From a virus, in the IMG/VR virus record IMGVR_UViG_3300042010_000060, positions 1-37,760 of that record: DNA of 37,760 bases. The stretch is one strand, 5' to 3'. Made by a program: the position numbers and the translations under genes. Under the pieces are notes generated by a model that saw nothing but the letters and a program-made list of their open reading frames with translations, was not told the DNA's origin and did not search any database. Below, one piece after another: positions 2,267 through 37,760 of the stretch; position 1 is the first letter of the stretch, and each line of letters begins with the position of its first letter.

Positions 2267-3058
2267 ATGAACTTTGAACAGGCCAAGGCGCTGAGGATCC
2301 AGCGATGGCGGGACACCCTTGATGACCACGACTTCAGAATGCGCAACCCAGAGGCGCACCGATCCTGCCTGCTTGAAACAAGTTCACGGTTAGCCGAGGA
2401 ACGGCTGATTGATCGAATGGAACAGTTCGAGATGGATGAAATGGCGAACGCTGCGTACTGGCTCGCTGTCGAGGATCTGCACGCGCAGCACGTTATCTTC
2501 AGGCCTTCATATGGATATGACGTGGTCCCGACGGGGGGCGGCCCGAGGCTTGGGACAATCTTTCATTCGATATTGACGCTCGATGCCAGCCGAGACGACC
2601 CGCGTCGGCCCTACGACGGTCAAGTGTACCGGGACGAGGAAGGGCTCGCGTTGCGATACAGCTACGCCAGCACCACGGGCCGTATCGAAGGGCTGACCCT
2701 CACGCTGGATGACGGCCGGCAATTTGACCTGATCGAAACTGAGCGGATGGTTTCGGGAGTGGTATATCAGCCTATAGAAGATCCGGACGTGTACCGCTGG
2801 ATGCTGGACGTCCTGCAGGTGGCCAAGGAGAACAAGCAGCTCGATATCATGCAGAAAATACGTCCCTTCTTCGAGCTGGCAAGGTTTGCCGCATGCTCGT
2901 CATGTAACGACCGGTTCGGCCGGCGGGAGGACTGCGAGCCTTGCGGCGGCTTAGGCTTCGTCGAGAAACCCGTCCATCTGGGAAAACTTCCAATGCAAAG
3001 CCAAGGTCAACCGGGCATGGCCAGCGAACCAGGTGAAGATCATGTGCGGCGGAGTTGA
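2267..3058 (+). CDS. SOS-controlled prophage protein with C-terminal zinc ribbon
   Basis: A 263-residue soluble protein. The N-terminal 70 residues are charged and helical, with several Glu/Arg pairs (AEERLIDRMEQFEMDEMANA). The middle looks like a beta-rich domain. Near residues 210-233 there is a CSSC...CEPCGG pair (CxxC, 12 residues, CxxCGGxG) similar to DnaJ-type zinc ribbons. The family is not recognised. A LexA box stands just upstream, and the last 17 bases overlap the SRAP gene start, so the two are translationally coupled. Joint SOS induction with an abasic-site crosslinking protein suggests a DNA-damage or nucleic-acid role, by inference only. Confidence 0.75.
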   Translation: MNFEQAKALRIQRWRDTLDDHDFRMRNPEAHRSCLLETSSRLAEERLIDRMEQFEMDEMANAAYWLAVEDLHAQHVIFRPSYGYDVVPTGGGPRLGTIFHSILTLDASRDDPRRPYDGQVYRDEEGLALRYSYASTTGRIEGLTLTLDDGRQFDLIETERMVSGVVYQPIEDPDVYRWMLDVLQVAKENKQLDIMQKIRPFFELARFAACSSCNDRFGRREDCEPCGGLGFVEKPVHLGKLPMQSQGQPGMASEPGEDHVRRS

Positions 3059-14172: not shown

Positions 14173-17138
14173 CAACCCCTCCCGTTGATAACGCGCCAGA
14201 TGGCGCCGCCAGGCTGCAAACCTCGGGCGATTGCCGTTTCAGCTTCAGCCTTGGCCGCTTGCTGAATGCCTTTTCCCAGCTGCGTCGTGTCTTCCGTGGT
14301 CGTGACGCCGCCGTCGCCGGTGGTCTGGACAGAGACGGCAACGGGGAAGTTGTAGACGTTGCCGCCGCCACTCCCGCCGCTGCTGATGGCCCTCACGCCC
14401 AGCTGGCCGCCGGCCGTGCGGGTCAGAGGCATGATCGCCTCCTCCCCCGCTTCGCCCATTACGCCAATCCCACCACCAGCCATGCCGAACGCTGTCGGCT
14501 TGCTCACGATGGAGTTGGCGAATGCTGCGCCGTTGGCAAACATCTGCACGCCGCCCGACCAGGCGCCGCCCTTGGCTTGGATGCTGCCCGGGGTGAAGCC
14601 TGACAGGTCGCCGGAATACCCGGCCTGGGTCGAGCCGGCAGATGAAGCGCCGCCGCCACCAAACCATGCGCCGAGAGCGCTCCCAGCAATGCTGGACAGA
14701 AGACCTGAAGCTGCCTGTCTGGTGGCGATCCGCGCCATGTCCGCCAAGATCGACTTGGTGAAGTCCGCAAACGAGAACTTCCCAGTCATGGCGAAGTTGA
14801 CGACCGAATCCTCCATGGAGCTGAACGCGTTGGTGAACAGGTCCCGCGTCTGGCCGGCAACGTTGCGCGCGCTTTCCAGATAGTTGCTGAAGGCCGAGGT
14901 CGCACCTTTGCGCCAATCGCTTTGCGCCTCGGACATCTGCTCGTAGTTGCTGAGCACTGTTTCGCTCAGGTCCCTCTCGCTTTTGTTAATGGCGTCCAGC
15001 TTGGCCTGGTATTCCTCGGCGCTCATGTTGCGCGCCTGGTCGGCCTTGTCGCGAGCCAGGTCCAGGCGCTGCTGGTTGGCTCGGTCGGCGATGCCGTTCA
15101 ACTCTCCGTTGATGGCGTTCTCACGATCACCACGGCCCACGCCATCCGCCGCACGGCTGCCAGCGCGCCGCAGGGCGACGTTCTGCTGGTCCAGGGCATC
15201 GGTGTAGCTCTTGATGGCCTGGGCCTGCTTGGCGAGCCTGCCCTGCTCGTTGGTCGCGATGACTTCAAGCTCGCTGTCGGCCTCCTTCTGCGCCTTGACC
15301 ATATTGGCCCGGGCGTCGGCGATCTTCTGGTCTAGCTGAATGCGCTGGGCCGCCGAAGTGCTGGCCTTGCCTTTCGTCGATTCGAGCGCGGCGATCTCGG
15401 CCTGATAAGCAGCCGTGACTTCGTCCCGCTCGTTGCCGATCAAGGACCGGCGCTTGAGCAGGTAGTCTTCTTGGCTGACCAGGCCAGCCTTCTGCGCCGC
15501 CTCCAGCTCCTTCTGCGCGTTTTTGTACTCACTGAGGATCAGCGAAAGCTGGTTTTTCGAGTCGTTGAACTCGGTCAGGTTGACGGCAGTCGTCGCTGCC
15601 TTTGGGTCCTTGTTCTTGTCCTGGATGTTCTGGATCGTCTTCGTGACGACCGCATCCTGGACCATCGGGTCGTTCGGGTTGGCCTTGCGCAGCGCCTCGA
15701 CGTCCCGCTTGTACTCCTTGATCAGCTTGTTGCGCTTCTCCTCGTTGGTGAGGTTGGAGTCGCTGATCGCCTTCAGGCGAGTACTCGCGTCGATGCCTTC
15801 GCGCTGGATCTGTGCGTTCAGGCCTTGAGCCTTCGCTATGGCGTCTTGGGTGTTCTTCTGCTGAGTCAGGAACTCCAGTTCCAAGCGGGAGTTCTTCAGC
15901 TTTTCTTGGGCGTCAGTATCGCTTGGGTCGCCGTTGACCATGCTCTGGGCAGCGGCTACGCGACGTTGAGCATCGGTAATCTGGCTCGCCAGGGCCTGCT
16001 CGCGGCCAATGTCCTTAACTGCGTCAGCAGTTGCCGAGATCTCACCCTTCAGGCTTTTCCAGCCACGCTCCCAGATGGACAGGTTCTCGGTTACCTCGCT
16101 GCTGCGGGTCTTGATCGTGTCGACGTAGGTGTCGGTGAGCAGCTTGGCCGCGCCGATGGCGTCGCCTTGGGACTTAAGCGCGACTATCTGGGCATAGGTG
16201 CTGACCGTCAGGAAGTTGTACTGGTCGTTCAGCTCCTTGGCAGCTGCAACCGGGTCCTTGCCGATCTTCACGAACTCAGCAATCGTTTCCTCGACTGCCC
16301 GACCGGTTGCTTTTTCCCACTCCAGAGCGGCGACGGTGATGCCTTCAAAGCTGCTGCTGACGATCTTTCCAGTTCCTGCCAGCTTCGTCAGGACCTCTGC
16401 GGCGGCACCAGTGGTGCCCACAGTTGCGCTGACTTGGCGGGCCATTTGAGTCAACGCGTCCGCGGAGATACCAGCAGCATTCCCGGTCTTTATCAGCTCT
16501 TCCCGGTATCCAACGGCCTCCTCACTACCGGAATAGTAGGCATACGTCAGGCCGGCAATAGCCGCAGCAGCCACGGTGAAGGGGTTCACCAGGCCGAGCA
16601 CATAACCGCCCAGAGCACGGACCGCCGGGCCAATGCCGCCGAACATGTCCTTCAGTTGGCCGCCCTGCTGGAGCAGAACAGTCAGCGGGTTCTGGCCGCC
16701 TTGCAGCGACACAGCGATGTCCGTGAACTGTGCGGGCACGCCACGCAGTGCGGCGGCAGTCTGCTTGGCGGTGTTGCCGGTGCGGGTCAGCGAATCATCG
16801 AACCGTCCCAGGTTTGCCCGAGACTGATCGATCTTGGCCTGGTATTCGCTGAAGGTCGACGCGTCGAGCGCGCCGAGCTTCTTCTGCTTCGCCAGTTTGG
16901 TTTCGAGTTCGTCCAGTCGGCCCAGTGCCTTGACGGTCGGGTCAATCTCGCCCAGCAGATCGCCCAGCTCGTCCTTCTGCTTCTTGATCGAGGCCGTGGC
17001 CTTGTCAGCGCCACGGGCAACGCCTTCGGCAGCCTTCTCCGCCCGGCCACCCGCCGCGGTGAGTTTGTCGAGGTCGGAGCTCGCCTGCGCAGCATCGGTC
17101 GAATCGACCTTGATGCCGAGTTCAGCAATAGAAGTCAT
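14172..17138 (-). CDS. H: Tail length tape measure protein
   Basis: A 988-residue protein of the lambda H family. The N-terminus (SIAELGIKVDSTDAAQASSDLDKL) is the family start. Then come a GVPAQFTDIAVSLQGGQNPLTVLLQQGGQLKDMFG block typical of this family (residues about 130-170), a hydrophobic segment (about 180-205, LGGYVLGLVNPFTVAAAAIAGLTYAYY), long coiled-coils (about 370-720), and a C-terminal lambda-type tape-measure domain near 750-830. By the usual rule of about 1.5 angstrom per residue the tail would be near 150 nm, similar to lambda (inference). It is preceded by the frameshifted chaperone genes, as in lambda. Confidence 0.93.
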   Translation of the reverse strand: MTSIAELGIKVDSTDAAQASSDLDKLTAAGGRAEKAAEGVARGADKATASIKKQKDELGDLLGEIDPTVKALGRLDELETKLAKQKKLGALDASTFSEYQAKIDQSRANLGRFDDSLTRTGNTAKQTAAALRGVPAQFTDIAVSLQGGQNPLTVLLQQGGQLKDMFGGIGPAVRALGGYVLGLVNPFTVAAAAIAGLTYAYYSGSEEAVGYREELIKTGNAAGISADALTQMARQVSATVGTTGAAAEVLTKLAGTGKIVSSSFEGITVAALEWEKATGRAVEETIAEFVKIGKDPVAAAKELNDQYNFLTVSTYAQIVALKSQGDAIGAAKLLTDTYVDTIKTRSSEVTENLSIWERGWKSLKGEISATADAVKDIGREQALASQITDAQRRVAAAQSMVNGDPSDTDAQEKLKNSRLELEFLTQQKNTQDAIAKAQGLNAQIQREGIDASTRLKAISDSNLTNEEKRNKLIKEYKRDVEALRKANPNDPMVQDAVVTKTIQNIQDKNKDPKAATTAVNLTEFNDSKNQLSLILSEYKNAQKELEAAQKAGLVSQEDYLLKRRSLIGNERDEVTAAYQAEIAALESTKGKASTSAAQRIQLDQKIADARANMVKAQKEADSELEVIATNEQGRLAKQAQAIKSYTDALDQQNVALRRAGSRAADGVGRGDRENAINGELNGIADRANQQRLDLARDKADQARNMSAEEYQAKLDAINKSERDLSETVLSNYEQMSEAQSDWRKGATSAFSNYLESARNVAGQTRDLFTNAFSSMEDSVVNFAMTGKFSFADFTKSILADMARIATRQAASGLLSSIAGSALGAWFGGGGASSAGSTQAGYSGDLSGFTPGSIQAKGGAWSGGVQMFANGAAFANSIVSKPTAFGMAGGGIGVMGEAGEEAIMPLTRTAGGQLGVRAISSGGSGGGNVYNFPVAVSVQTTGDGGVTTTEDTTQLGKGIQQAAKAEAETAIARGLQPGGAIWRVINGRG

Positions 17139-34590: not shown

Positions 34591-34803
34591 TTACCCCGAA
34601 GAGTCCCTGCCCGAGGCCCTCATTGGGGGCACCAGCTGAAGGATCTTGGCCTTCTTCCTTCCCACTTCGGAAAGCGCGCCACAGGCAATGGCGGTTTCCG
34701 TCATTTCGTTGATCGCACGGCTGAAGCTCCAGCCGTTTGCGCGCATCAGTTCCTCCACTCGCTGTCGAGTCCGCGGAGGCAGCCTTTCAAGCTCTACGGT
34801 CAT
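34591..34803 (-). CDS. Small DNA-binding-like protein (ribbon-helix-helix type)
   Basis: A 70-residue protein. The ATG at 34803 follows GGAGGG. VELERLPPRTRQRVEELMRANGWSFSRAINEMTETAI has the strand-helix-helix plan of Arc/MetJ-like regulators. The first half is basic. It lies between Rha and another similar small protein in the early operon. The target is unknown. Confidence 0.65.
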   Translation of the reverse strand: MTVELERLPPRTRQRVEELMRANGWSFSRAINEMTETAIACGALSEVGRKKAKILQLVPPMRASGRDSSG

Positions 34804-34822
34804 TTGGCCCTCCAAAGGGGCT

Positions 34823-35023
34823 TCAGCCCGCGATATCTTCTTGTTTGTCCTGCATCAGTTCCTCGATCACGCCGTTGGCTACGGCCCACTCGATGATTTC
34901 GTACAGGTAGGTCGCGTGCTGCATACGGGTCTTGGTTGCGGCTTTACGCAGAATCCGATCAAGCACCGGTTCGAATCGAACCTTCACCGGGATGGCGCGC
35001 TTTTGATTGGGGTCCATGTACAT
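34823..35023 (-). CDS. Small ribbon-helix-helix-like regulator
   Basis: A 66-residue protein. The ATG at 35023 is preceded by AGGAG nine bases upstream; a second ATG follows at 35017. RAIPVKVRFEPVLDRILRKAATKTRMQHATYLYEIIEWAV fits a basic ribbon-helix-helix protein (strand PVKVRFEP, then two helices). It lies directly downstream of cro. Role unknown. Confidence 0.68.
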   Translation of the reverse strand: MYMDPNQKRAIPVKVRFEPVLDRILRKAATKTRMQHATYLYEIIEWAVANGVIEELMQDKQEDIAG

Positions 35024-35079
35024 GCTTCGATGCTCCTGGCTGTTGAAGAGAAAACGGTGGGTTGTGGGTGTCGGCACGT

Positions 35080-35256
35080 CTACGCAGCCTGGGATTTCTG
35101 CTCAGCTTTCAGCGCGCCCAGGGTGATTCGCTCGATCTGGTACTGGCGCAGCTCGGGCACGTCATCCCACTGGCGGACGGCCTCGTAGGTGACGCGCAAG
35201 GCTTTTGCCAGCGCCGAGACGGAGCCGAAATGCTTGATTGCTTGTGATTTGGTCAT
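35080..35256 (-). CDS. cro: Cro-like repressor
   Basis: A 58-residue helix-turn-helix protein: KSQAIKHFGSVSALAKALRVTYEAVRQWDDVPELRQYQIERIT is the Cro pattern of P22-type phages (SALAKAL...AVxxW...RxYxIxxIT). It shares the recognition-helix residues YEAVRQW with the CI protein, so both should read the same operators. AAGGAGG precedes the ATG. It is the first gene of the early minus-strand operon and diverges from cI. Confidence 0.87.
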   Translation of the reverse strand: MTKSQAIKHFGSVSALAKALRVTYEAVRQWDDVPELRQYQIERITLGALKAEQKSQAA

Positions 35257-35275
35257 GCCGACCTCCTTTTGCTTA

Positions 35276-35304
35276 TTCATATTCAAGCATGCTTGTGTTT
35301 GCAA
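35276..35304 (-). promoter_or_regulatory. Putative early promoter PR for cro and replication genes
   Basis: On the minus strand TTGCAA (35304-35299), 17 bases, then TATGAA (35281-35276). The first operator palindrome lies between the two elements, as expected for repression. Confidence 0.5.
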
Positions 35305-35331
35305 GGCAAGCATGCTTGACAAGCTCTCTTG
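35284..35331. promoter_or_regulatory. CI/Cro operator array (OR counterpart)
   Basis: Two perfect CAAGCATGCTTG palindromes at 35284-35295 and 35307-35318 (centres 23 bases apart), and a weaker CAAG-N4-CTTG at 35320-35331. They fill the 87-base cI-cro gap. Confidence 0.85.
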
Positions 35332-35343
35332 TAGATTGCTCGC

Positions 35344-36198
35344 ATGAAAATTACTGATCGAATCCAGAAGCTGGTCGTGACCCGGAAGCCAGATGTTGGC
35401 CCGCGTAGCTTCAAGCGTGATATCGCGACCACTTGTGGGGTCAGCTATGAGGCTGTTCGCCAATGGTTTGCTGGTGACACGAGCAACATCAAAAACGAAC
35501 ACCTGATTTCCATTGCGGAAGGCTATGACACCAGTGTCGATTGGCTTCTATCGGGCCGAGGCGAACCACCTCGAAGGAAAGATGCGCCGCCCTTGATGGA
35601 CGCCACCGACAGCAAGTCGGCTGCCGATATCGTCCGGCAGATGCTGGAGAAACACGGAAAGAGTCTCACTGAGGATGCTCGCAAGATGATTGCGAACGCT
35701 GTGGAGGAAACCGCCGTCCAGCTTAAATCTGGAAACGTCATCCATGTGGACTTTTCGCGCCCAGGGCAGGTTGGCGACGAGGTTTGGATTGCCCATTACG
35801 ACGTTCGGGCGGCTATGGGTGGCGGTCAGGTACCTGGCGATTATCCAGAGGTGCTCCAGGACATACGGGTAAGTCCGACGCATCTTCGGCAGATGGGAGT
35901 GGAGTTCACCGAGCACTACCACCTCAAGGTCATCACCGGCTGGGGTCAGTCAATGACTCCCACCATCAAGCATCGCGACCCACTGTTAGTCGACGTCAGC
36001 ATTCGGGAGTTCGTCGGCGACGGGATATACCTGTTCTCACATGACGACATGCTTTACATCAAGCGCTTGCAGAAAAAGGGGCGCGATCATTTCAAGATGA
36101 TCTCAGACAACACCAATCACCCTGCCGAGGATATTCGCGTGGATGACACCTTCATCCAGGCGCGGGTGCTGCTGGTCTGGAATGCGAATTTGGTTTAG
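35344..36198 (+). CDS. cI: CI-like prophage repressor with S24 autoprotease
   Basis: A 284-residue protein. The N-terminal helix-turn-helix is at about 22-42 (SFKRDIATTCGVSYEAVRQW). A linker (75-130) leads to a LexA-type S24 peptidase: Ser203 (GWGQSMTPTIK) and Lys240 (MLYIKRLQK) form the catalytic dyad. RecA-triggered self-cleavage would lift repression under SOS; the likely cleavage region is the AAMGGGQ segment near 156-161. It holds the prophage silent. It diverges from cro and shares its recognition residues. Confidence 0.92.
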   Translation: MKITDRIQKLVVTRKPDVGPRSFKRDIATTCGVSYEAVRQWFAGDTSNIKNEHLISIAEGYDTSVDWLLSGRGEPPRRKDAPPLMDATDSKSAADIVRQMLEKHGKSLTEDARKMIANAVEETAVQLKSGNVIHVDFSRPGQVGDEVWIAHYDVRAAMGGGQVPGDYPEVLQDIRVSPTHLRQMGVEFTEHYHLKVITGWGQSMTPTIKHRDPLLVDVSIREFVGDGIYLFSHDDMLYIKRLQKKGRDHFKMISDNTNHPAEDIRVDDTFIQARVLLVWNANLV

Positions 36199-36236
36199 CA
36201 GCTTTAGAGTTATCCATTCAGCAAAGGAAATTTATC

Positions 36237-37157
36237 TTGGCCAAGGAAAATGACGCGGGGAATGGCAAAGGGCTCCCAACAGCAACGCACAAAGGCGTGC
36301 TGAAAATTGCGGACATGGAGATAAATTGCTTCGTCCTTGATGATGGTCGAAGGGTTATATCTGGCAGGGGGATGACAGCGGCCATTGGTATGAAAGGGCG
36401 TGGCCAAGGTATTGCCCGAATTACCAGCTTAAAAGTCATAAAAACGTTTGAAAACAATGCTTTGATGCTGGCCATGCAAAACCCAATTCAATTCCTGGGC
36501 GGCTCACCCCGAAAAGGTGTTCCCAGTGATGGATTTGAGGCCTCAACACTGCAGGATCTCTGCGAAGCATTGCTTCAAGCACGTGATGCCGATCTGCTGA
36601 AAACAGAGCAGGAAATCCGGTACGCGCAATTCGCCGACATCTTGATCCGGTCTTTCGCGCGAGTCGGGATCATTGCTCTTGTTGACGAAGCGACTGGCTT
36701 TCAAGGCGAGCGACCTGCAGATGCTCTACAGCAATACCTTGAGCTTTTGGTCAGTAAGGAACTGGCTGCATGGGTAAAGAAATTTCCCGACGAGTTCTAC
36801 GAAAACATCTACAAACTTAAAGGCTGGGTTTGGCCTGGCATGAAGAAAAACCGCTATAGCGTGGTAGGCAAATACACAAGGGACCTTGTCTTCGAGCGCC
36901 TGGCACCAGGGCTTCTTCCTGAACTCGAAAGCAAAAGCCCAAAGAACGCCAAGGGGCAACGAAAATCAAAGCTCCACCAGTGGCTTACCCAGGATATTGG
37001 CGATCCCATGCTTGCCCAGCATATGCACACCCTTGTCATGTTCCAGCGCTTAGCTATTGCGAATGGCCATAGCTGGGAGCGATTCCTTAAAACGGTCGAC
37101 CAAGTATTGCCCAAGCGTGGGGAGACTTTGGAATTGCCGATGGATCATCTCGAATAA
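36237..37157 (+). CDS. P63C-domain protein in the rex position of the immunity region
   Basis: A 306-residue protein. The start is TTG at 36237 with AAAGGAA upstream. The N-terminal half (LKIADMEINCFVLDDGRRVISGRGMTAAIGMKG) is a domain often joined to P63C, followed by a helical middle (ILIRSFARVGIIALVDEATGF). The C-terminal half is the P63C domain: KFPDEFYENIYKLKGW, YTRDLVFERLAPGLL, QWLTQDIG and the end RGETLELP. The function of the family is not known to me. It follows cI by 38 bases on the same strand and is followed by a terminator, so it is probably expressed in the lysogen. Its DNA is more AT-rich than the structural genes. Confidence 0.83.
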   Translation: MAKENDAGNGKGLPTATHKGVLKIADMEINCFVLDDGRRVISGRGMTAAIGMKGRGQGIARITSLKVIKTFENNALMLAMQNPIQFLGGSPRKGVPSDGFEASTLQDLCEALLQARDADLLKTEQEIRYAQFADILIRSFARVGIIALVDEATGFQGERPADALQQYLELLVSKELAAWVKKFPDEFYENIYKLKGWVWPGMKKNRYSVVGKYTRDLVFERLAPGLLPELESKSPKNAKGQRKSKLHQWLTQDIGDPMLAQHMHTLVMFQRLAIANGHSWERFLKTVDQVLPKRGETLELPMDHLE

Positions 37158-37169
37158 CCAAACCCCATG

Positions 37170-37195
37170 AGCCCGGCCAAGCGCCGGGCTTTTCT
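37170..37195 (+). terminator. Terminator of the cI-P63C transcript
   Basis: AGCCCGGC (37170-37177) pairs with GCCGGGCT (37183-37190) around CAAGC, followed by TTTTCTTT. It also lies directly after the DUF1654 gene end on the other strand, though without a good T-run there. Confidence 0.85.
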
Positions 37196-37202
37196 TTGCC
37201 TG

Positions 37203-37514
37203 TCAGAAAGGCGCCCCCTCCTCTACCCTTTCTATAACCTCAACCGGCCTATCCTCCTCGGCGCACGCCTCCCACCTCAGTGTTACCGATCCATCGTCGT
37301 TGAATGTCATGTCTATGCCATCCGTTTCAGATAGCCGGCCCATCACCTCCTCCCACTCCTGATCTCCGTCGCTGTCCAGGCGATGGATCGTCACCCAGCG
37401 CTGAAGCTGCGCAACCGGGTGATTGATCATGTTCGATACCCTCAGGCCAAGCCGCTCAACCCCCGCCATCTCCCCGTCCCGCCGGGAACCTTCAGTACCT
37501 GCCAGCTGCCTCAT
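37203..37514 (-). CDS. DUF1654-family protein under LexA control
   Basis: A 103-residue protein. The ATG at 37514 is chosen because the frame upstream runs through the LexA box. RLGLRVSNMINHPVAQLQRWVTIHRLDSDGDQEWEEVM is the DUF1654 signature. I know this family only from Pseudomonas and its phages, several members being SOS-linked. Function unknown. It points towards the P63C gene and is divergent from whatever lies right of the window. A LexA box and a CI-type operator array stand directly upstream. Confidence 0.8.
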   Translation of the reverse strand: MRQLAGTEGSRRDGEMAGVERLGLRVSNMINHPVAQLQRWVTIHRLDSDGDQEWEEVMGRLSETDGIDMTFNDDGSVTLRWEACAEEDRPVEVIERVEEGAPF

Positions 37515-37531
37515 AACCCCTCCTATTTTTA

Positions 37532-37551
37532 TGCTGTATATCCATACAGTA
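37532..37551 (-). promoter_or_regulatory. LexA (SOS) box upstream of the DUF1654 gene
   Basis: TGCTGTATATCCATACAGTA contains CTG-TATATCCATA-CAG. It ends 17 bases before the ATG at 37514. The core TATATCCA is shared with the other LexA box at 2226. Confidence 0.88.
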
Positions 37552-37564
37552 CGAAAAATAAATA

Positions 37565-37640
37565 CAAGCGTGCTTGCATTCAAAACACAAGCATGCTTTT
37601 ATTAATGCAAGCCGACTTGCAAAGCGAAACACAAGCAAGC
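37565..37640. promoter_or_regulatory. Second CI/Cro-type operator array (OL counterpart)
   Basis: CAAGCGTGCTTG (37565-37576), CAAGCATGCTTT (37588-37599), CAAGCCGACTTG (37608-37619) and half-site CAAGCAAGC (37632-37640). The first two centres are 23 bases apart, exactly as in the cI-cro array. Confidence 0.78.
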
Positions 37641-37760
37641 GGCCAGGGCCTCAACAGACCCACCGCTCTTTAGCTCCACCCCTTGCCGGATCACCACCGG
37701 CCCAGATTCGAAGGCAGCGATGAACCGGCCTCAACGGTTCAGAGGGTTGGCAACTGACCC
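37641..37760. other. Right edge of the window, no gene seen
   Basis: 120 bases with no supported ORF. It is probably the leader of a rightward early transcript (PL-type) that continues beyond the window, where the integrase should be. Confidence 0.4.

Follow-up and report, generated by a model that had tools for sequence, protein, structure and literature searches.

What controls the gene at the right-hand end of IMG/VR virus record IMGVR_UViG_3300042010_000060? Here, a gene of the DUF1654 family is preceded by a LexA box, and beyond this box lies an array of short palindromes that resembles the operators between the phage genes cI and cro. Two questions follow: whether this array is the left operator (OL) that pairs with the right operator (OR) of a lambda-like switch; and whether it places DUF1654 under the phage repressor CI as well as host LexA. 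The window analyzed is the whole record (37,760 bp; linear; perhaps a fragment), which ends 120 bases past the right-hand array, and its relatives suggest Pseudomonas as the host genus. From left to right, this end of the window carries: cro (-); the operator region; cI (+); a P63C gene (+); a terminator-like stem-loop; DUF1654 (-); the LexA box; and the second array. The reading that we consider probable is that the array forms the OL of a lambda-like switch and adjoins a divergent DUF1654 promoter under both LexA and CI. Within this reading, protein binding, the promoter positions, the AND logic and the role of DUF1654 are predictions from sequence.

Two palindrome arrays with one motif

At up to one mismatch, the palindrome CAAGCRTGCTTG occurs at only four places in the window: 35284 and 35307, in the cI-cro region; and 37565 and 37588, in the right-hand array. 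With each palindrome counted on both strands, this gives 8 strand hits; 100 dinucleotide shuffles average 0.62 and never exceed 3. The spacing is 23 bp in both pairs, and the two arrays can be aligned over 37 nt with 76% identity. The right-hand array therefore contains the same operator as OR, as an OL does, and the shared palindrome and spacing proposed in an earlier sequence-only reading of this DNA are borne out. Chance likeness between the arrays is ruled out by these shuffle counts together with the own-type and cross-type matches described below.

Within OR, the operator CAAGCATGCTTG stands at 35284-35295 and again, 23 bp from the first, at 35307-35318. A weaker third site, CAAGCTCTCTTG, lies at 35320-35331, and 36/45 loci with the window's CI type show this 13-bp step. 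The right-hand array contains OL1, CAAGCGTGCTTG (37565-37576), OL2, CAAGCATGCTTT (37588-37599), and OL3, CAAGCCGACTTG (37608-37619). The sequence-only reading had placed two weaker sites to the right of the pair. The first of these is OL3, which has 3 mismatches to the consensus used in that reading and 1 mismatch to CAAGC-N2-GCTTG; the second is reduced to a weak half-site, CAAGCAAGC (37632-37640), recognized from the sequence and the array alignment.

Relatives were gathered with DUF1654 as one starting point and CI as the other, 80 loci from each, and these 160 loci plus the window were checked for both genes. Sixteen of the 161 are without one of the two; in all 145 loci that carry both, cI and DUF1654 are convergent. 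Of the 145, 8 have an incomplete OR/OL or CI and 14 are duplicates, leaving 137 full and 123 distinct loci, which fall into 13 groups by the N-terminal domain of CI. One group (F9, locus L008), for which neither the CI start nor OR could be assigned, was excluded from the motif scans, and groups F6 and F8 were merged in the own-type and cross-type scan because they have a common motif. The named phages F116 and phi297 have the same arrangement as the window, with cI and DUF1654 convergent and a leftward gene block beyond DUF1654.

The operator motif differs by CI type (for example TAACCNNNGGTAT, TTAGCN5GCTAA and ATGCACNNGTGCAT), and side-by-side comparison of one or two members per group indicates that the DUF1654-side array mostly has the motif of its own phage's cI-cro region. 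At up to 2 mismatches, at least two own-type sites are present in the DUF1654-side array of 119/122 loci, whereas shuffled arrays have means of 0 to 0.30. At one mismatch, the own-type motif is found in 121/122 loci, as compared to 9 of 1220 cross-type tests. The type consensuses were set after both arrays had been viewed, so the fair test is a comparison of OR to OL without a preset motif. In this comparison, the own OL is strictly best in 32 of 47 representatives. When the loci are grouped into eight looser CI clusters, with one representative each and again no preset motif, the own OL ranks first in all eight, and none of 20,000 permutations reaches the observed OR-OL sum. Close relatives with the same CI keep the palindromes: in the window's CI type, each array holds two or more sites in all 45 loci, and the OL spacing starts 23,20 in every one of them, with three sites in 40 loci and a fourth in 5.

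These comparisons also bear on an account in which the array is no operator array and its likeness to OR is left over from a duplication or recombination. The extent of identity between the two arrays would be expected of such a remnant. The array changes with the DNA-binding domain of CI across CI types, however, and both sites and spacing are kept throughout the window's type, which makes this account scarcely credible.

An OL is accompanied by a promoter, PL. Here, a candidate PL reading rightward is predicted at 37574-37602 (+ strand; TTGCAT, 17 bp, TTTTAT). This element was picked by eye, is weak, and was not flagged by a consensus scan; loci of other CI types have TTGACN-type elements in the corresponding position. 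With a loose pattern and no control, a TTGACN-type promoter reading away from cI is found in 73/123 loci and 9/13 CI types. The putative PL leader (37646-37672, + strand) comprises a weak hairpin, GGGCCTCAACAGACCC, followed by a boxA-like element, CGCTCTTTA (37664-37672). The boxA-like pattern GCTCTTTA is found within 300 nt beyond DUF1654 in 95/123 loci, as compared to 202 of 20,000 random 300-nt windows. Across 148 distinct leader segments, the hairpin before boxA has a mean minimum free energy of -7.5, versus -6.1 in mononucleotide shuffles; this gap is only slight, and a strong conserved structure was rejected. The order of hairpin then boxA is that of ribosomal RNA leaders, unlike lambda nut sites.

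As the array tracks the CI type and a boxA-like leader follows it, its identity as OL is strongly supported, in agreement with the sequence-only reading. The right-hand array is very probably the OL/PL of a lambda-like switch, with CI as its predicted ligand. In lambda, OL/PL and OR/PR are bound by CI and Cro. By analogy, CI dimers, and probably Cro, would bind the array at 37565-37619 as well as OR, and CI would keep the rightward PL and PR silent in the lysogen. As in lambda, the cI operon lies between two arrays that share a palindrome, the predicted PL is directed outward from cI, and a boxA-like element comes next. In contrast to lambda, the cI operon and PL of the window are separated by DUF1654, convergent with cI and very probably under LexA control, its operator sequences differ, and the weak hairpin stands before boxA rather than after it.

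LexA, DUF1654 and a functional relative

The LexA box CTGTATATCCATACAG (37534-37549) has 2 mismatches to CTGTATATATATACAG. At up to 3 mismatches, the window contains two matches to CTGTATATATATACAG, where none is expected. The pattern CTG-N10-CAG is found no more than 60 nt upstream of DUF1654 in 121/123 loci, as compared to 445 of 20,000 random 60-nt windows (2%). A second set of 182 loci contains 17 without a DUF1654 match; 6 of the remaining 165 have no usable upstream sequence, and 41 of the remaining 159 repeat a known upstream sequence. Of the 118 further distinct loci that this leaves, which include chromosomal prophages and named phages, 115 carry the pattern. (In this set, motif types were set by the motif alone, with CI not consulted, and 9 of the 118 could not be assigned to one.) Together, a LexA box is present upstream of DUF1654 in 236/241 distinct loci; these counts come from related loci, gathered through similarity, and are not independent events.

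The gene downstream of this box (37203-37514, - strand) encodes a 103-aa protein and is convergent with cI. It matches Pfam PF07867 with an E of 6.5e-27 and a score of 93.5 bits, as compared to a curated Pfam cut-off of 27. At E up to 0.01, the protein matches only PF07867 and phrog_2707, both families of unknown function. Counting duplicate loci, 162/168 DUF1654 proteins have an acidic C-terminus that finishes in PF, which recalls the C-terminal tip of single-stranded-DNA-binding protein. A fold-based function was considered and set aside: a Foldseek search with a model of the 103 residues (mean predicted local distance difference test (pLDDT) score 73; predicted template modeling (pTM) score 0.53) returned no match at E ≤0.001 in PDB or BFVD. 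In a second structural look, among the top chains from Foldseek, the best Z was 6.7 (CtsR), a level that the tool deems common. A profile search at E up to 1 found no sequence relatives of DUF1654 in PDB.

One relative comes with a phenotype. PMC4595014 places the prophage gene PP_3901 of Pseudomonas putida in both LexA regulons, with a promoter that responds to nalidixic acid, and states, citing Abella et al. 2007, that PP_3901 is required for DNA-damage induction of other prophages. The four PP_3901 primers published there match the P. putida record, locus L185, exactly. At these primers, L185 has a gene for an 86-aa DUF1654 protein (E 1.7e-32; 111.4 bits), and its LexA box lies at 3006-3021 of that locus. 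PP_3901 is a member of the DUF1654 family, LexA box included. Taken with the retention of the box across distinct loci, this makes it very likely that DUF1654 is under LexA control, and that part of the sequence-only reading stands.

The resemblance extends to the surroundings of the gene. In L185, as in the window, a DUF1654 gene with a LexA box is found beside a PL-like element, paired operator-like sites and boxA: beyond PP_3901 lie the PL-like element, two ATGAGN4CTCAT-like sites 25 bp apart, and boxA. At up to one mismatch, ATGAGN4CTCAT occurs at 6 places in L185, among them a second pair about 4.4 kb upstream (36734 and 36758) and lone matches at 16196 and 37157. No paper linking DUF1654 to prophage induction was found in the open-access literature, a scope that omits most subscription journals. 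A role for DUF1654 in inducing the phage of the window is a reasoned guess.

At the opposite end of the record, a phrog_19595 gene (2267-3058) has a second LexA-like box, CTGTATATCCAAACAG (2228-2243), upstream. Among 28 loci with this gene, one is without upstream sequence; of the other 27, 26 have CTG-N10-CAG no more than 120 nt upstream, one of these 26 (L379) being distant and doubtful. The phage may carry two SOS genes.

CI as a possible second repressor of DUF1654

The sequence-only reading also proposed a double SOS gate, in which DUF1654 answers to both host LexA and CI. A DUF1654 promoter, picked by eye and not flagged by the consensus scan, is predicted on the - strand, with a -35 element TTGAAT at 37578-37583, a 17-bp spacer, and a -10 element TATTTT at 37555-37560. 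This would place OL1 inside the spacer and the LexA box at the transcript start. The arrangement suggests the following sequence: a divergent promoter just left of OL would drive DUF1654; host LexA, bound to the 37534-37549 box, would repress this promoter; CI at OL1 would lie over the spacer between -35 and -10; DUF1654 would be made only once SOS removes LexA and CI is also off; and DUF1654 would then promote prophage induction, by analogy with PP_3901.

The position of OL1 is invariant. In all 45 loci of the window's CI type, the center of the nearest operator is 29 bp from the center of the LexA box. A second CI type, with the motif TTAGCN5GCTAA, has a different N-terminal domain and a C-terminal part that is about 42% identical. 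In 43/45 loci of this type, an operator 20-45 bp (mostly 26.5-29.5 bp) from the LexA center is accompanied by at least two sites at least 80 bp away, although the loci were chosen for at least two such motifs and the count leans that way. At one mismatch, TTAGCN5GCTAA is absent from 108/108 arrays of other types. The motif therefore follows the CI type and is no part of the DUF1654 promoter as such.

Bound CI might instead activate, in which case DUF1654 would be a lysogenic gene that LexA further restrains. Judged by eye, TAACC-type phages have the operator directly next to the predicted -35, from where activation is conceivable. In the window and TTAGCN5GCTAA types, by contrast, the operator appears to lie between the predicted -35 and -10, which would suit repression. 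We regard activation as very improbable.

A weightier alternative accepts OL/PL as real and has CI act on PL only, with DUF1654 under LexA alone and OL1 nearby because the intergenic region is compact. The other CI types lend themselves to this: they keep the LexA box while their operators are mostly 50-118 bp away. Loci of the TAACC type have their nearest operator about 50-55 bp from the box, with a single exception among those measured. In types other than this, the window's and TTAGCN5GCTAA, the nearest operator is mostly 73-118 bp away; distances below 73 bp outside groups F0, F1 and F2 are 39 (F7), 53 (F12) and 56.5 bp (F5). Odd nearest distances (-17 to 33 bp) in a few loci of motif types F3, F4 and F10 in the second LexA set were taken as chance matches. 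In the P. putida record, the paired operator matches nearest to the LexA box are approximately 380 bp from it. These distances indicate that LexA alone probably rules in the other types, and they refute a double gate general to all DUF1654 genes. In the window, however, OL1 sits in the spacer of the predicted promoter at a constant distance, and the TTAGCN5GCTAA type, in addition to its distant sites, has an operator at much the same offset. For the window, we hold control by LexA alone to be unlikely, if more probable than the other alternatives.

Several observations weigh against the joint switch that we favor. First, CI control of DUF1654 is not general, given the operator distances in other CI types, and the closeness of OL1 in the window type may come merely from a compact region. 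Second, both PL and the DUF1654 promoter are weak hexamers, a consensus scan of 35000-37760 flagged no sigma-70 promoter, and the TTGACN-type PL pattern is found in no locus of the window's CI type. Third, 15 of the 47 representatives do not have their own OL strictly best: two groups that share one motif account for 6 of these, and a type whose OR sites are weak for 5; the other 4 are scattered. Among the 6, L072 is beaten or equalled by 13/42. Finally, PP_3901 and the window protein are only 26% identical, and the P. putida gene, unlike that of the window, is co-oriented with PL, has its LexA box far from any operator, and encodes no C-terminal PF tail.

Of the proposed double gate, then, what survives is confined to two CI types, the window's and TTAGCN5GCTAA, in which the operator positions make it plausible; its extension to DUF1654 genes at large falls away. 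For the window's own CI type, the placement of OL1 tips the balance toward joint control by CI.

Surroundings, precedents and significance

The remaining genes of the region are of familiar kinds. Cro (35080-35256, - strand) belongs to the P22_Cro family (E 9.4e-26). The CI repressor (35344-36198, + strand; phrog_4) has a helix-turn-helix (HTH) domain and a Peptidase_S24 domain (Pfam S24 E 8.9e-16; HTH_3 E 2.6e-5), and at E up to 0.001 it has no sequence relatives in PDB. Cro contains TYEAVRQW, of which YEAVRQW is common to CI and Cro of the window and looks like part of the recognition helix. Downstream of cI is the P63C-domain gene (36237-37157, + strand; E 1e-30), followed at 37169-37191 (+ strand) by the terminator-like stem-loop, a consensus match only; the region has 3 such stem-loops, as compared to a mean of 3.2 in shuffles. 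Two small leftward genes (34591-35077) lie between cro and a Rha-like gene, and the sole match of one of them (34823-35077) is a PHROG of unknown function. Toward the left end, approximately 1725-1790 resembles by eye part of the 3' half of a tRNA gene and is a possible attachment site; ARAGORN found no tRNA.

Known systems come close to parts of the proposed switch. The rstA promoter of the filamentous CTX phage is under LexA. It is also acted on by the phage repressor RstR, according to an excerpt of PMC8402870. As proposed for the window, one phage promoter answers to LexA and to the phage's own repressor; unlike in the window, the phage is filamentous, and its repressor and regulated gene are unrelated to those here. 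LexA-controlled antirepressors offer a second comparison, with Gifsy GfoA/GftA, 186 Tum and N15 AntC described in an excerpt of PMC3121763. As proposed for DUF1654, a small phage gene under LexA there couples induction to SOS. The window differs from the systems in that excerpt in that its gene abuts OL and its CI has an S24 domain, and antirepressor activity of DUF1654 is conjectural. Among titles and abstract openings in the open-access literature on LexA, Pseudomonas prophages and OL/OR, no account of this array was found. The parts are of known kinds; their combination, with a domain of unknown function linked to a phenotype, is new.

If CI and LexA both repress DUF1654, then DUF1654 cannot be the trigger of induction in this phage. 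It would instead appear after the loss of LexA, once CI has begun to fall, and would either reinforce induction or be of use to lysogens roused by damage, as opposed to newly infecting phages. Where no operator is nearby, as in P. putida, DUF1654 could be active early on and affect other prophages in trans, consistent with the phenotype reported for PP_3901. A broader conjecture, which we offer with considerable doubt, is that DUF1654 is an SOS effector of Pseudomonas phages that promotes induction, that at least two CI types have separately put an operator on its LexA promoter to form an AND gate, which would confine the protein to lysogens devoid of both LexA and CI, and that the acidic PF tail, like that of the single-stranded-DNA-binding protein, may draw in host repair proteins.

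DUF1654, a family without a function that lies beside the switch of many Pseudomonas phages, is here tied to the induction phenotype reported for PP_3901, and the locus marks a single promoter at which the repressors of phage and host could come together. If the proposal is true, DUF1654 would account for a route, besides CI cleavage, by which these prophages read SOS, and for the ability that some prophages may have to induce others.
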